The notes below the pieces were generated by a model, which was not told the DNA's origin, made no database searches, and was given only the letters and a program-made list of their open reading frames with translations. A stretch of 42,039 bases of DNA, taken from contig CACLQI010000008.1 of assembly GCA_902608975.1 (NCBI GenBank), positions 1 through 42,039 on the forward strand. The letters run 5' to 3'. Positions 1 through 36,300 of the stretch are shown here, piece after piece. How positions within the stretch are numbered: the stretch's first letter is position 1; each line of letters begins with the position of its first letter. The position numbers and the translations under genes were made by a program. Origin of the DNA: an uncultured Pelagibacteraceae bacterium. GTDB taxonomy: Bacteria; Pseudomonadota; Alphaproteobacteria; Pelagibacterales; Pelagibacteraceae.

Positions 1-1048
1 TATTTAATGAAAATTTGAATAAAATATAAAGTTTAAAAAATCTGATTCCTGAACTTGTTGAAAAAAAAGATCCTCCAATTATAACCAAAATTAAAAAAAT
101 AAATGATAAATTTTTTGGAGCATTCTCTAATGAAAAACCAATATTAGAAATACTACTTGCTATTGAAAAAAATAGTAAACTGAAGTCATATTCAAAATTT
201 AAAAATGAAAAAAAAATAAATATCAACGAAAGTAGATAAAAAAATAAATATATATCTTCATAAAAAAAATTAATATTTCTATTTTTTAGGAAAACTAAAT
301 TATAACTCAAAAAAATACTAAAAAATGAGACTAGCATTAATATCGAAAAAATTACTTCTTTTGGATTGCTATTTAAAACTAATGATAGATTGTTAAATGG
401 TAAAAAGCCACCAGAAGAAATTAAAGTCATTGATAAATTGAATGAATCAAAAGTTCTAAAATCGAAAATTTTTAAAGATATAAATATTAAAAATGTAAGG
501 ACGGTATAAAGAATTAAAATTTTGAATGATTGCTTTAATGTTTCGCTAGTATCAAAGGTTATAAAATTAGTAAGAGATTTTTTTAAATTATTATCAAAGA
601 TATCAATAAGTAAAATAATAGAAAATAAAAAATATAATCCTCCAATCCATTGTGTAGAAGATCTCCATAGAATTAAACTTTGATCTAAATGTTTAATGTT
701 TTCAAAAATTGTGAAACCTGTTGATGTAAATCCAGATATTGTTTCAAAATATGAGTCTAAAAAAGTAATATTATAAATGCTTAAATAAAAAGGTATTGAT
801 AAAATCAGTGGTAATAAAAAATAGCCCAAAATTACAGTTAAAATTTTATGATAAATATTAATTTTATAATTATCTTTTTTTTTAAATAAAAATATTAATC
901 CAAATAGTAAAGAAAAAACCAATGAATATAAATAACTATCAATACTTAAATATAAATTGAAATAGTATGAATAAATAATATTAAAAAAAGATAAAACAGA
1001 AATTATTAATGAAAAAATACCTAAATAAATTAAACTAAAATAACTCAT
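1..1048 (-). CDS. trkH: Trk potassium uptake membrane subunit TrkH (partial, C-terminus beyond left edge)
   Basis: The minus strand is open from ATG at 1048-1046 to the window edge (349 codons). The product is very hydrophobic and has TrkH-type pore loops. P1 is SGFTSTGFT at about residues 105-113, followed by SSTQWIGG; P2 contains ISSGGF; P3 contains SNIGFS; P4 is GGSFFSTSSGIR near the visible end. Each loop keeps its filter glycine. TrkH is the inner-membrane K+ channel-like subunit that pairs with the cytosolic NAD-binding regulator TrkA. The start lies 7 bases after the trkA stop, so the two are surely co-transcribed. The last helices and stop are outside the window. KtrB is a related alternative, but pairing with a duplicated-domain TrkA favours TrkH. 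Confidence 0.88.
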   Translation of the reverse strand, partial: MSYFSLIYLGIFSLIISVLSFFNIIYSYYFNLYLSIDSYLYSLVFSLLFGLIFLFKKKDNYKINIYHKILTVILGYFLLPLILSIPFYLSIYNITFLDSYFETISGFTSTGFTIFENIKHLDQSLILWRSSTQWIGGLYFLFSIILLIDIFDNNLKKSLTNFITFDTSETLKQSFKILILYTVLTFLIFISLKIFDFRTFDSFNLSMTLISSGGFLPFNNLSLVLNSNPKEVIFSILMLVSFFSIFLSYNLVFLKNRNINFFYEDIYLFFYLLSLIFIFFSFLNFEYDFSLLFFSIASSISNIGFSLENAPKNLSFIFLILVIIGGSFFSTSSGIRFFKLYILFKFSLN

Positions 1049-30996: not shown

Positions 30997-31544
30997 ATAG
31001 TCATGATTTCTTTTTCTTTTGCACTTACTTTGTCATCAATTTGCTTTATATGATTGTCTGTAAAGTTTTGTACTAATTTTTGGAATTTTTTTTCATCATC
31101 TTCACTAATATCTTTATTTTTTAATAAATTTTTTAGATTATCATTAGCTTCTCTTCTTATGTTTCTCACAGAAACTTTACATTTTTCACCGATTGTTTTA
31201 ATCATTTTTTTCATTTCACTTCTTCTTTCTTCGCTTAAATCAGGAATTGGCAATCTAATTAATTGCCCATCAATTTGAGGGTTTAAACCTAAATCTGATT
31301 TTCTAATTGCTGAGTCGATTAATTGAACATTGTTTTGATCCCATACCTGAATATTAATCATTCTTGCTTCTGGTGTGGTTATGCTTCCTATTTGGTTTAT
31401 TGGCATTTTTTGTCCATAAACATCTACTTTAATAAGATCAAGCATATTTGAATTAGCTCTACCTGTTCTTAATGAACTTAGTTCCTTCGTGAAAACTTCA
31501 AAAGTTTTATCCATCTTTTGATTATAAGTTTTTTCATCAAACAT
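30993..31544 (-). CDS. frr: Ribosome recycling factor
   Basis: 183-residue tRNA-shaped factor that splits post-termination ribosomes with EF-G. Conserved parts are LRTGRANSNMLDLIKVDVYG, ITTPEARMINIQVWD, and the C-terminal helix EERRSEMKKMIKTIGEKCKV and VRNIRREANDNLK. It abuts tsf with no gap (ATG at 31544 right after the tsf stop at 31545). pyrH, normally between tsf and frr, is not present. Confidence 0.97.
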   Translation of the reverse strand: MFDEKTYNQKMDKTFEVFTKELSSLRTGRANSNMLDLIKVDVYGQKMPINQIGSITTPEARMINIQVWDQNNVQLIDSAIRKSDLGLNPQIDGQLIRLPIPDLSEERRSEMKKMIKTIGEKCKVSVRNIRREANDNLKNLLKNKDISEDDEKKFQKLVQNFTDNHIKQIDDKVSAKEKEIMTI

Positions 31545-32396
31545 TTAGTCACCAATCTTTAATCTGTAAAAATCTTTTATTTTTAAATCGTTAATACTAA
31601 GTTCCTTTAAAATATCTTGAACTTTTTTCTTTGGTTCCATAACCCATTGCTGAGTTAGTAGAGAATTTTCTTCTTTAAATTTATTAATTTTTCCTAAACT
31701 TATTTTTTTAATAATATCATCAGATTTTCCTGTATTTTTTAACTCTTCACTTATTAATGAAATTTCCTTTTCTAAAATATTATTATCTATACTGTTTGTA
31801 TCAAGTGCTAGAGGGTTCGATGCAGCAATATGCATAGACAGTTGTTTACCAAAACTTTTTAAGTTATCTGACATATCTTTAGTTTCCAATGATACCACAA
31901 CAGCTAATTTTGATAAATTGTCTTTTACTACTGTGTGTAAATAATTAAAGTTTTTTGAACCATTATGATTGAATGTTTTTGCTCTACCAATAGTAATTTT
32001 TTCACCAATTTTAGAAATTAAAGCAATTAAATTTTCATCTGCTGTTTTGTTATTTTTCATTTTGGATTTTTTTAGTTTCTCTATGTCAGAGTTATTTGAA
32101 TTATTTAACTCACTTAATTCTTTTACAAAGTTAATGAAATCTTCATTTTTAGCAACAAAATCAGTTTCGCAATTAACTTCTATTAATGACAATTTGTTTT
32201 CGTCACCACTCAAAGCAACAACGCCTTCATTTGCTACTCTTGACATTTTTTTTGAAGCTTTAGATATACCTTTGACACGTAGTATTTCTACTGCTTTATC
32301 TAAATCACCTTTTGACTCTTCTAAGGCTGCATTACAGTCTTTAAAACCCGCACCTGTAGACTTACGTAATTGCTTTACTTTTTCTATGTCGCTCAT
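31545..32396 (-). CDS. tsf: Elongation factor Ts
   Basis: 283-residue guanine-nucleotide exchange factor for EF-Tu. The N-terminal UBA-like domain has [20 protein letters not shown], and the core has the EF-Tu contacting [18 protein letters not shown]. Two core subdomains follow, with [10 protein letters not shown] and a C-terminal [20 protein letters not shown]. It follows rpsB by 7 bases in the usual rpsB-tsf order, so it will share any control exerted by the rpsB leader. Confidence 0.97.
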
Positions 32397-32403
32397 ACTT
32401 ATT

Positions 32404-33180
32404 TTAATTCAGACTTTTCTTGGGTGATTTTTTTTCTTCTTTTGAATCATTGCTTATTGTAATTTTATCAAGATTTTTTTCATTTTTTTCTGGTGAAGCT
32501 TTTTTTGCATTTTCAATTGTTTCTCTCAATAACGAACAGTATAAATCAATTGATCTTCTTGCGTCATCATTGCCTGGTATAGGAAAGTCTATTCCTTTTG
32601 GATCAGAATTCGTATCTAATATAGCAATTATAGGGATACCTAATTTAATTGATTCTTTTATTGCAAGAGATTCGTAATTGGTGTCTATTACAAAAACTAG
32701 ATCAGGAATTTTTTTCATTTCAGAAATGCCGCCTAAAGATCTTTGAAGTTTATCTCTTAACATGCTCATTTTTAATAATTCTTTTTTTGTAAAACCACGA
32801 TTTTCAGAGCTTAGATCTAAGTTTATTTTTTCAAGTTTTTTTATTGAATTTGATATTGTTCCCCAGTTAGTTAGCATTCCCCCTAACCATCTATAATTAA
32901 CAAAATATTGATCAGTACTTTTTGCAAGCTCAGCGATTGCCTCTGATGCCTGTTTTTTAGTTGAGATAAATAAAATTTTCCCGTTATTTGCCACTGTTTC
33001 ATAAACTTTTTCTAAAGCAACATTTGCCAATTCAAGTGTTTGAGTTAAATCTATTATATGAATTGAATCTCTTTTTCCAAAAATGTATTTCTTCATTTTT
33101 GGATTCCATCTAAGAGTTTTATGACCTAAATGCACTCCTGCTTCTAATAACTGTTGTATTGTTAAATTTGGTATTTTCAT
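32404..33180 (-). CDS. rpsB: 30S ribosomal protein S2
   Basis: 258 residues with the S2 signatures [20 protein letters not shown] and [17 protein letters not shown], and [13 protein letters not shown] in the middle. [18 protein letters not shown] and [14 protein letters not shown] are conserved later. A Lys/Glu/Ser-rich tail (about 225-258) extends past the core. It is preceded by a 125-base non-coding region containing an apparent structured leader at 33181-33260, which probably controls the rpsB-tsf mRNA. Confidence 0.97.
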
Positions 33181-33260
33181 ATTTATTCCCGGTTATGCCA
33201 CCACAGCTATTTCCACTAAAGGACCGGAGGTATAAAACCACAAGCTGTGTGCGTGTTAAT
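33181..33260 (-). promoter_or_regulatory. Structured 5' leader of rpsB, pseudoknot-like, covering the ribosome binding site
   Basis: On the minus strand two perfect inverted repeats interleave. CACAGCT (complement of 33243-33249) pairs with AGCTGTG (complement of 33202-33208). CCGGT (complement of 33223-33227) pairs with ACCGG (complement of 33189-33193). Interleaved stems form an H-type pseudoknot. The last strand, ACCGGG, ends 8 bases before the ATG and includes the only purine-rich Shine-Dalgarno-like bases, so pairing would hide the start site. The segment is visibly richer in G and C than its surroundings. S2 is known to repress its own operon in E. coli. To my recollection a candidate structured RNA before the S2 gene has been reported in 'Candidatus Pelagibacter'. 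Confidence 0.72.
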
Positions 33261-33269
33261 TTAGATGGT

Positions 33270-33298
33270 TATTTACAAATTATTTTGCAAATAAACAA
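33270..33298 (-). promoter_or_regulatory. Candidate promoter for rpsB-tsf
   Basis: On the minus strand TTGTTT (complement of 33293-33298), a 17-base spacer and TAAATA (complement of 33270-33275) are placed so that transcription would start just before the leader's first stem. The -10 is a poor match and the region is A+T-rich, so this is a positional suggestion. Read-through from dnaE, whose stop is at 33306, is the alternative. Confidence 0.3.
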
Positions 33299-33305
33299 GT
33301 AGTTT

Positions 33306-36300
33306 TTAATAAATTGTTGTTAAAATATCTTGATTTTTGATGATATTTATCAATTTTCTATCAACAAATCTTTTGTTTTTTAACTTTAATGTGAATTCTT
33401 CTTTACCATTGTTAAACTTAATTTTTACATCAGTCTTTCCAGTATTTTTTATTAATTTTGAAATTTCCTTTATTTGATCATGTTTTTTAATTTCAAATTC
33501 AATTTCAGATATAGGCTTATTATATAAATCTTTTAATGATAAAATTTTTTTAACGTTTATTCTTTTAAATCTATTCTCATCATCAATATGATTTTTACTT
33601 AAAGTCATTATTAATGAATTGCCTTCAACTAATATATTTCTATTTAATTCTAAAATATCCGAAAAAATAAACAATTCAAATACGCTGGTTAAATCTGTAA
33701 GTTTAATAACAGCATATGAGTTACCTTTACTGGTTTTTTTTTCTTGTACTTTTAAAAGTGTTGCCGCAACAATACTTTCTTTAATTTCGTTTTTAAACTT
33801 AAAAGTATTAAAATCAATAATTTTATAATCAGCAAAAATATCTTTGAATTGGTTCAAAGGATGATTTGAAATATAAAAACCTACAGCTTCAAATTCTTTT
33901 GTTAATCTTTCTTCAAATTTCCAATCTTGCTTTGTTATAAGTAAATTTTCTTGACTTGATTCATCTGTCTTAAAAAGATCAATTTGATTGGCAATTTTGT
34001 TATCATAGATATTTTTTGATTTTTGAATTAATTTAGGAATTGAATCAAAAAGGGATTGCCTATTGTTATTTATTGAATCAAAACTTCCAGCTTTAACCAA
34101 ACCTTCTAATTGCAATTTATTTAAATCCTTGGGTCTAACTCTGTTGATAAAATCATTAATCGATAAAAACTCTCCATTTTTCTCTCTTTCTCTGACTATG
34201 TTTGAAACTGCCTCAAACCCGACATTTTTAATTCCTCCTAATGCATAATAAAAACATTGATTTGTAGATCTAAAATCGGCAAAACACTTGTTTATATCGG
34301 GTCTTATAATTTTTATATTTAATCTTTTTAGCTCCTCATAAAATTCACTTAATTTATTTTGATTTGATATATCCATGGTCATTGAAGCAGAGAAAAACTC
34401 ATTTGGGTAATGAGTTTTTAAATATGCTGTTTGATATGAAATAATTCCGTATGCAGCAGCATGACTTTTATTAAAACCATATTCAGCAAATGGTTCAATT
34501 TTTAAAAATATACCAGCAGCTACATCTTTTTTAATTCCATTTTTTACTGCTCCTTCAATAAATTTTTCTTTTTGTTTTTCTAATTCAGCTCTTTTCTTTT
34601 TTCCCATTGCTTTTCTTAAAATATCAGCTTGCCCAGCTGTAAAACCCGAAAGTTTTTGTGCTATTTGCATTACTTGCTCTTGATAGATAATTACACCGTA
34701 GGTTGGTTTTAATATTTCCTCTAAATATGGATGCAAATAATCAGGTTTTTGAATTCCGTGTTTGCAGTCATTGTATATCGGGATGTTACTCATAGGCCCA
34801 GGTCTATATAGAGCTACAAGAGCAATAATGTCTTCCAAATGATTAGGCTTCATTTTAATCAAAGCTTCTCTCATGCCTGCACTTTCAAGTTGGAATATTC
34901 CTACAGTATTTCCTTTTGATAATAATTCGAAAACATTTTGATCATTAAATTCAATGTTTTCTATTTTAAAATTTTTATTTTTTTTATTAATTAGTTTTTG
35001 TGTTTTGTTTATAACTGTTAATGTTTTTAAGCCTAAAAAATCGAATTTTATCAATCCTGCTTTTTCTGCTGAGTACATATCAAATTGAGTGGATGGTAAT
35101 AATAAATTAGCTGAAGAGTCTTTATACAAGGGGACCTCTTCGGTTAGATTTTTATCAGCTATAACTACTCCTGCTGCATGAGTGGCTACATTTCTATTTA
35201 AACCTTCTAATTTAAGTGAAAGATCGGTCAATTTTTTTACTCTAGGGTCTTCTTTAATTAATTTTTGTAATCTCGGTTCGTTGCTAATACACTGTGATAA
35301 ATTTTGGGGCCTTGAAGGGTCAAAAGGTATCATTTTAGAAATACTATCAACAAAACCATAAGGCAAACCTATAACTCTACCGACATCTCTTATAACCATA
35401 CGAGCCTTTAATTTTCCAAAAGTAATTATATGAGCTACTCCATTTTTATATTTTGATGTTAAATACTTAAAAACTAAATCTCTTTTTTCTTCGCAAAAAT
35501 CTATATCAAAATCTGGCATCGATATACGATCTGGATTCAAAAATCTCTCAAAAATTAAATTGAATTTTATTGGGTCTACATCCGTAATAGACAAACACCA
35601 AGCTACTAATGATCCAGCACCAGATCCTCTTCCTGGTCCAACAGGTATATCGTTATTCTTAGCCCATTTTATATAATCTGCTACGATTAAAAAATAACTA
35701 GCATATTTCATTTCAATTATAATTTTTAATTCATGCTGTAATCTTTTTTTATATATTAAAAAATTTTGATCATTATTTAAATTAACCTCGTCTATATTAA
35801 ATACTTTTAAAAATTTTTCTTTTAACCCTTCCTCTGAATCTTTTAATAAAATTTCATCAGCCTCACCTCCTTTTTCTGAACTTATGTTAGGTAAAATTGG
35901 TTCAGAAATTTGAGGTCTAAAACTGCATCGGAAAGGTAAATTATAATTATTTTGTAAAGCTTCTGGTATATCAAAAAACAATTTTGACATTTCTTCAGTA
36001 GATTTAAAATAATGTTGATCAGTATATTTGAAACGATTTTTATCGTTAATGTAAGACTTGTTACCTATGCACATCAAAGCGTCATGAGCATCATGCATAT
36101 CTTTATGAATATAAAATACTTCATTAGTTGCTATTATTGGAATTTTTAAATCATTAGACTGTTTGAGGTTGTATTTTTCAAAACTAAGCTCATTATTGTC
36201 ACCATGTCTTTGTATTTCTAGATAAAATCTATTACCCATTATGGAAGATAACTTTTTGTACAATTTTCTAATATCTTCAAATTTTCCTTTATGAAACAAT

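Follow-up and report, generated by a model that had tools for sequence, protein, structure and literature searches.

The window analysed here, a stretch of 42,039 nucleotides from an uncultured Pelagibacteraceae bacterium, carries rpsB and tsf in the same direction on the minus strand (Table 1). Pfam searches of five neighbouring frames identified ribosomal protein S2, EF-Ts, ribosome recycling factor, undecaprenyl diphosphate synthase and DNA polymerase III alpha. The rpsB leader is the 125-base gap on the minus strand between the end of dnaE at 33306 and the start of rpsB at 33180.

Table 1. Genes, structural parts and upstream signals at the rpsB locus
Feature	Position	Strand	Evidence
rpsB, ribosomal protein S2 (258 aa); target of the regulation and presumed repressor	32404..33180	-	PF00318, E 7.8e-87
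tsf, elongation factor Ts; next gene, same direction	31545..32396	-	PF00889, E 3.9e-58
P1 5' strand, 10 pairs, bulged A at 33250	33243..33253	-	cmscan alignment; 7 of 10 pairs changed on both sides in 88 leaders
P1 3' strand	33199..33208	-	alignment of 88 leaders
P2, 3-pair hairpin GGU...ACC	33229..33239	-	cmscan alignment; 92.7% of cells paired, no double change
Pseudoknot strand 1, CCGGU, P2-P3 junction	33223..33227	-	repeat and 88-leader alignment
P3, 2-pair hairpin CC...GG	33213..33222	-	90.9% of cells paired, no double change; short P3 as published for P. ubique
Pseudoknot strand 2, ACCGG, -13 to -9 from AUG	33189..33193	-	99.5% of cells paired; compensatory pair in 2 of 88 leaders
8-base stretch GAATAAAT, pseudoknot to AUG, without a separate Shine-Dalgarno core	33181..33188	-	spacing count
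Promoter-like pair TTGTTT (33298-33293), 17 bases, TAAATA (33275-33270)	33270..33298	-	pattern in SAR11 leaders

At the tsf/frr border (31544-31545), no pyrH, the gene for UMP kinase, lies in between. When five genomes were searched, TIGR02075 exceeded its cut-off in one of them, G037 of the sister family, a short way past rpsB. The window's own genome, which is incomplete, and G351, G012 and G143 had only weak matches (at most 46.3 bits) inside longer frames; these are probably other amino acid kinases. PF00406 exceeded its cut-off once per genome, with in-frame stops in the own genome's copy, and these matches are probably adenylate kinase.

A sequence-only reading of this DNA had described two perfect inverted repeats that interleave like a pseudoknot in a G+C-rich rpsB leader. 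We found both on the minus strand, in the interleaved order described: CACAGCT (33249-33243) with AGCTGTG (33208-33202), and CCGGT (33227-33223) with ACCGG (33193-33189). The first helix is longer than the seven pairs of that reading, since beyond the bulged A it continues for three pairs (33253-33251 with 33201-33199), including a G-U pair. The G+C fraction at 33180-33259 is 0.438, compared with 0.163-0.375 in the other listed 80-base steps between 32500 and 34000; that of the whole window is 0.262. An interleaved pair of repeats, one of 7 or more and one of 5 or more bases, arose in 926 of 20,000 dinucleotide shuffles of the 80-base leader, and was present in 723 of 4,196 overlapping 80-base pieces of the window. 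The folding energy of the leader was not exceptional either (z -1.09; 28 of 200 shuffles equally good). Since chance often produces such interleaving and the energy is unremarkable, one sequence by itself is weak evidence. These tests of energy and repeat count speak against the basis of the sequence-only reading, not against the structure, and the claim is therefore carried by comparison with relatives.

Relation to the published rpsB motif

At Rfam gathering thresholds there was no match in the window. In a permissive search of 401 bases (33080-33480), the rpsB family RF01815 matched 33253-33172 over the whole model with 34.4 bits (E 3.1e-5). This score misses the gathering score of 40 bits, which is an operational criterion outside the published description of the motif. 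The rpsB motif was found, pseudoknot included, in Candidatus Pelagibacter ubique HTCC1062 and, according to the available text of that paper, consists of P1, a short P2 and P3 (three and two pairs in P. ubique) and a junction pseudoknot, which has five pairs outside the Firmicutes; almost every published example precedes rpsB (Meyer et al. 2009, PMC2704228). The window element shares P1 with its bulge, the short P2 and P3, the five-pair J2-3 pseudoknot and the place before rpsB; its P2 and P3 have three and two pairs, matching the P. ubique description, and it is followed by rpsB and then tsf. As far as the P. ubique form is described in that text, we see no difference of substance. Relative to the Rfam consensus, the window element is shorter, and the AGgAg that follows the pseudoknot there is missing from it.

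The element of the complete genome G351, of the same genus, scored 33.3 bits for RF01815, also below the cut-off of 40. Its rpsB begins at 873284, directly after the published HTCC1062 dnaE-rpsB gap (873155-873283), so that G351 is almost certainly P. ubique HTCC1062. The window element differs from that of G351 at 6 of 80 bases. The S2-associated Pelagibacter RNA that the sequence-only reading had mentioned is thus a known motif, matched end to end here and published from P. ubique, as the available text states. The element is a further copy of the published rpsB motif in its SAR11 form, real and mostly known already.

Among 61 genomes (the own genome and 60 relatives), RF01815 matched at E <=0.001 in 22, a search whose filters lose weak matches, and S2 was found in 45. 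None of the 61 passed the Rfam cut-off, so annotation by cut-off would omit the element in these SAR11 genomes. All eight leaders that were searched against Rfam matched RF01815 below the cut-off, the sister-family leader L209 with only 22.4 bits (E 0.082). Across the class there were matches in 176 of 289 genomes, 75 of them above the cut-off, and in 1 of 14 control genomes. The additional genomes confirm a control element that occurs in abundant marine bacteria. The t44 family (RF00127), the E. coli rpsB leader, gave no match in 33080-33480 at E values up to 5.

Pairing and covariation in SAR11 leaders

Leaders were cut from the window and from 132 of 133 loci (L125 lacks a gene start), giving 133, many loci being the same place twice. 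The resulting alignment, A1, holds 88 distinct SAR11 leaders of 85 bases. Across the whole structure, 95.3% of the pair cells in these leaders form, against a shuffled mean of 91.2, and 8 pairs changed on both sides against a mean of 3.7. Double-changed cells numbered 64 against 16.7, and fell to 4-8 when the partners were slid. None of 500 shuffles reached any of the three values. Further pair types were not above the shuffles in the 88 leaders (17 versus 16.6; 251 of 500 shuffles).

P1 supplies seven of the eight covarying pairs, with 94.8% of its cells paired; its innermost pair fails in 37 of the 88 leaders, and its G-U pair fails in 9. Neither P2 nor P3 shows a double change in this alignment, and the P2 counts are low estimates because P2 is misaligned in A1 for L127-L133 and the sister family.

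For the pseudoknot, the 99.5% share of paired cells compares with at most 59.1% when the strands are slid, and by eye all of its unpaired cells stem from one row, L104, which is shifted by one column. One pair carries a compensatory change, in L109 and L110, perhaps a single event. That count was reached in 22 of 500 shuffles, a +2 slide gives 2 such pairs, and the covariation score of 0.022 is lower than the 0.059 of the version slid by -3. Some of the covariation measures do not exceed those of the slid versions; only its share of paired cells makes the pseudoknot stand out. By eye, L226 and L227, which belong to two further families of the class, carry a different compensatory change (CTGGT with ACCAG); in the relative L198, which reads ACCGA, the outer pair is lost. 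The covariation that the sequence-only reading had asked for in both stems is therefore strong in P1, and compensatory changes in the pseudoknot are few. The predicted pseudoknot rests on near-invariance in the right places, on these few changes and on the published motif.

These comparisons also bear on whether the repeats arose by chance in a short leader. The frequency of interleaving among shuffles and the ordinary fold energy would agree with chance, but the pairing and covariation in 88 leaders, the near-complete pairing of the pseudoknot and the RF01815 match make this explanation scarcely credible.

CCUCC in the P2-P3 junction was considered as a copy of the anti-Shine-Dalgarno sequence, but this idea was rejected. 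These bases belong to the end of P2 and the beginning of the pseudoknot strand, and they are not conserved, since L127-L133 read partly CCUCCCGGU and partly CCUACCGGU and the sister family reads CUGUCCGGU.

Upstream of the element, the pattern TTGN3-16..18-TAN4 occurred within 60 bases in 87 of 87 SAR11 leaders that were long enough, compared with a mean of 16.2 and a maximum of 26 in 200 mononucleotide shuffles; as the leaders are related, these are not 87 independent cases. Another form of the pattern was found in 82 of the 87. A stricter sigma-70 scan did not list the promoter-like pair of the window (33270-33298), which lies immediately downstream of dnaE. From this pair, a transcript would start about 10 bases before P1.

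The start region

To describe the start region we used 108 SAR11 leaders, the 88 of A1 and 20 more, of which L192, L209 and L210 repeat an 80-base leader among the 88. In every one of the 108, 6-10 bases separate the end of the last pseudoknot strand from the AUG (8 bases in 80 of them). The comparison set comprised 49 leaders of other alphaproteobacteria, namely the 30 best RF01815 matches in the class and 19 of 20 that were hand-picked to include low scores and small genomes. Here the distance is 14-23 bases, except for one leader at 9. L227 was left out since the script did not locate its start; by eye it reads ACCAG, 16 bases containing AGGA, and ATG. A Shine-Dalgarno core follows the pseudoknot in 4 of 108 SAR11 leaders, compared with 44 of the 49 others, the latter likely an upper estimate because selection by a model with an AGgAg consensus favours Shine-Dalgarno leaders.

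The sequence-only reading had held that the last strand covers the only Shine-Dalgarno-like bases and so can mask the start site. As a description this stands, for GGGA (33190-33187) overlaps the strand; that these bases function is doubtful, given cores near background in G351. There, cores precede 31 of 316 long frames (9.8%) against a background of 6.7% (400 kb), whereas the outgroup G155 has them before 104 of 271 (38.4%) against 7.1% (400 kb). For these counts a frame starts at the first ATG after a stop and has at least 150 aa, so true starts may lie further in. Within the window, none of 35 reading frames (overlapping frames kept) had a core, at a background of 6.4%. The 16S end of the own genome retains ACCTCCTT. 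So do four of five further genomes that were examined, and in the remaining one, G351, the sequence available reads N at this place. Use of Shine-Dalgarno cores is thus low in this SAR11 genus although the 16S end of the own genome is intact.

It could still be that the strand hides a working Shine-Dalgarno sequence, GGGA or GGAG, with the pseudoknot competing against the anti-Shine-Dalgarno, an arrangement compatible with S2 feedback. With the strand included, 91 of the 108 SAR11 leaders are predicted to pair with the 16S tail at -4 kcal/mol or better; without it, 4 of the 108 do. The retained 16S end of the own genome would allow such pairing. However, the near-background core use in G351 (whose own 16S tail is the one that reads N) and the lack of cores in the window frames argue against it, and two of the G residues are fixed by the pseudoknot anyway. 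We regard this explanation as doubtful. The loss of the Shine-Dalgarno core at rpsB agrees with its low use in the genus, which makes it more likely that the strand occupies the landing zone of the ribosome. Steric cover of the start region is therefore safer wording than masking of a true Shine-Dalgarno sequence, and the strand may block the landing zone.

A search of one literature collection, covering titles and the beginnings of abstracts, turned up nothing on how the SAR11 rpsB leader is spaced or on its Shine-Dalgarno sequence. The compact start region is a detail that we have not seen described in the available text of either Meyer et al. 2009 (PMC2704228) or the review (PMC10931766).

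Proposed feedback by S2

The observations at this locus are the family match, the conservation, the covariation, which is strong in P1 but slight in the pseudoknot, and the position before rpsB. For their role we turned to E. coli, where the available text of a review reports that S2 represses its own operon rpsB-tsf, S1 being needed for the full effect, and terms the final step of this repression unclear (PMC10931766). The SAR11 element shares with t44 the place as leader of rpsB-tsf and, in the proposal below, the repression by S2 that this text reports for E. coli (PMC10931766). By analogy, S2 is most likely the ligand and the repressor of SAR11 rpsB-tsf.

We consider it quite likely that this SAR11 form of RF01815 acts as follows. 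The transcript would start just upstream of the element, and the leader would fold into P1 with its bulged A, the short P2 and P3, and a pseudoknot of five pairs in which the P2-P3 junction joins with bases lying 3' of P1. S2 in excess over 30S subunits would then bind the leader structure and hold the pseudoknot closed 8 bases before the AUG; landing of the 30S subunit would be prevented, and the output of S2 and EF-Ts would drop together. From the geometry we infer that initiation is blocked by the closing of the pseudoknot. For E. coli, the available text reports an operator that does not include the start region (PMC10931766), so the blocking step suggested for SAR11 is not the documented one.

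Alternatively, the leader might work without S2, the pseudoknot alone setting a low basal level of initiation or serving as a temperature or growth-state switch. The spacing of 6-10 bases between strand and AUG in all 108 SAR11 leaders would suit this. We think it unlikely, since the motif sits before rpsB in nearly all examples in the published text (PMC2704228) and since E. coli is reported to have S2 feedback acting on its rpsB leader (PMC10931766, in the text available).

Returning to feedback by S2, we tentatively suggest, as a possibility that falls well short of probable, that the SAR11 lineage shortened the rpsB leader, dropped the Shine-Dalgarno sequence and turned the pseudoknot strand into a block of ribosome landing, so that S2 feedback would act directly on the start region, unlike in E. 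coli. The compact SAR11 form offers a simple case for how S2 feedback blocks initiation, a step that for E. coli the review, in its available text, calls unclear (PMC10931766).

Elsewhere in the class, the alphaproteobacterial leader L227 (positions 2-90) matched RF01815 with 31.4 bits and also, weakly, t44 (RF00127; 23.8 bits, E 0.035, cut-off 44). Perhaps these two Rfam families describe related leaders.
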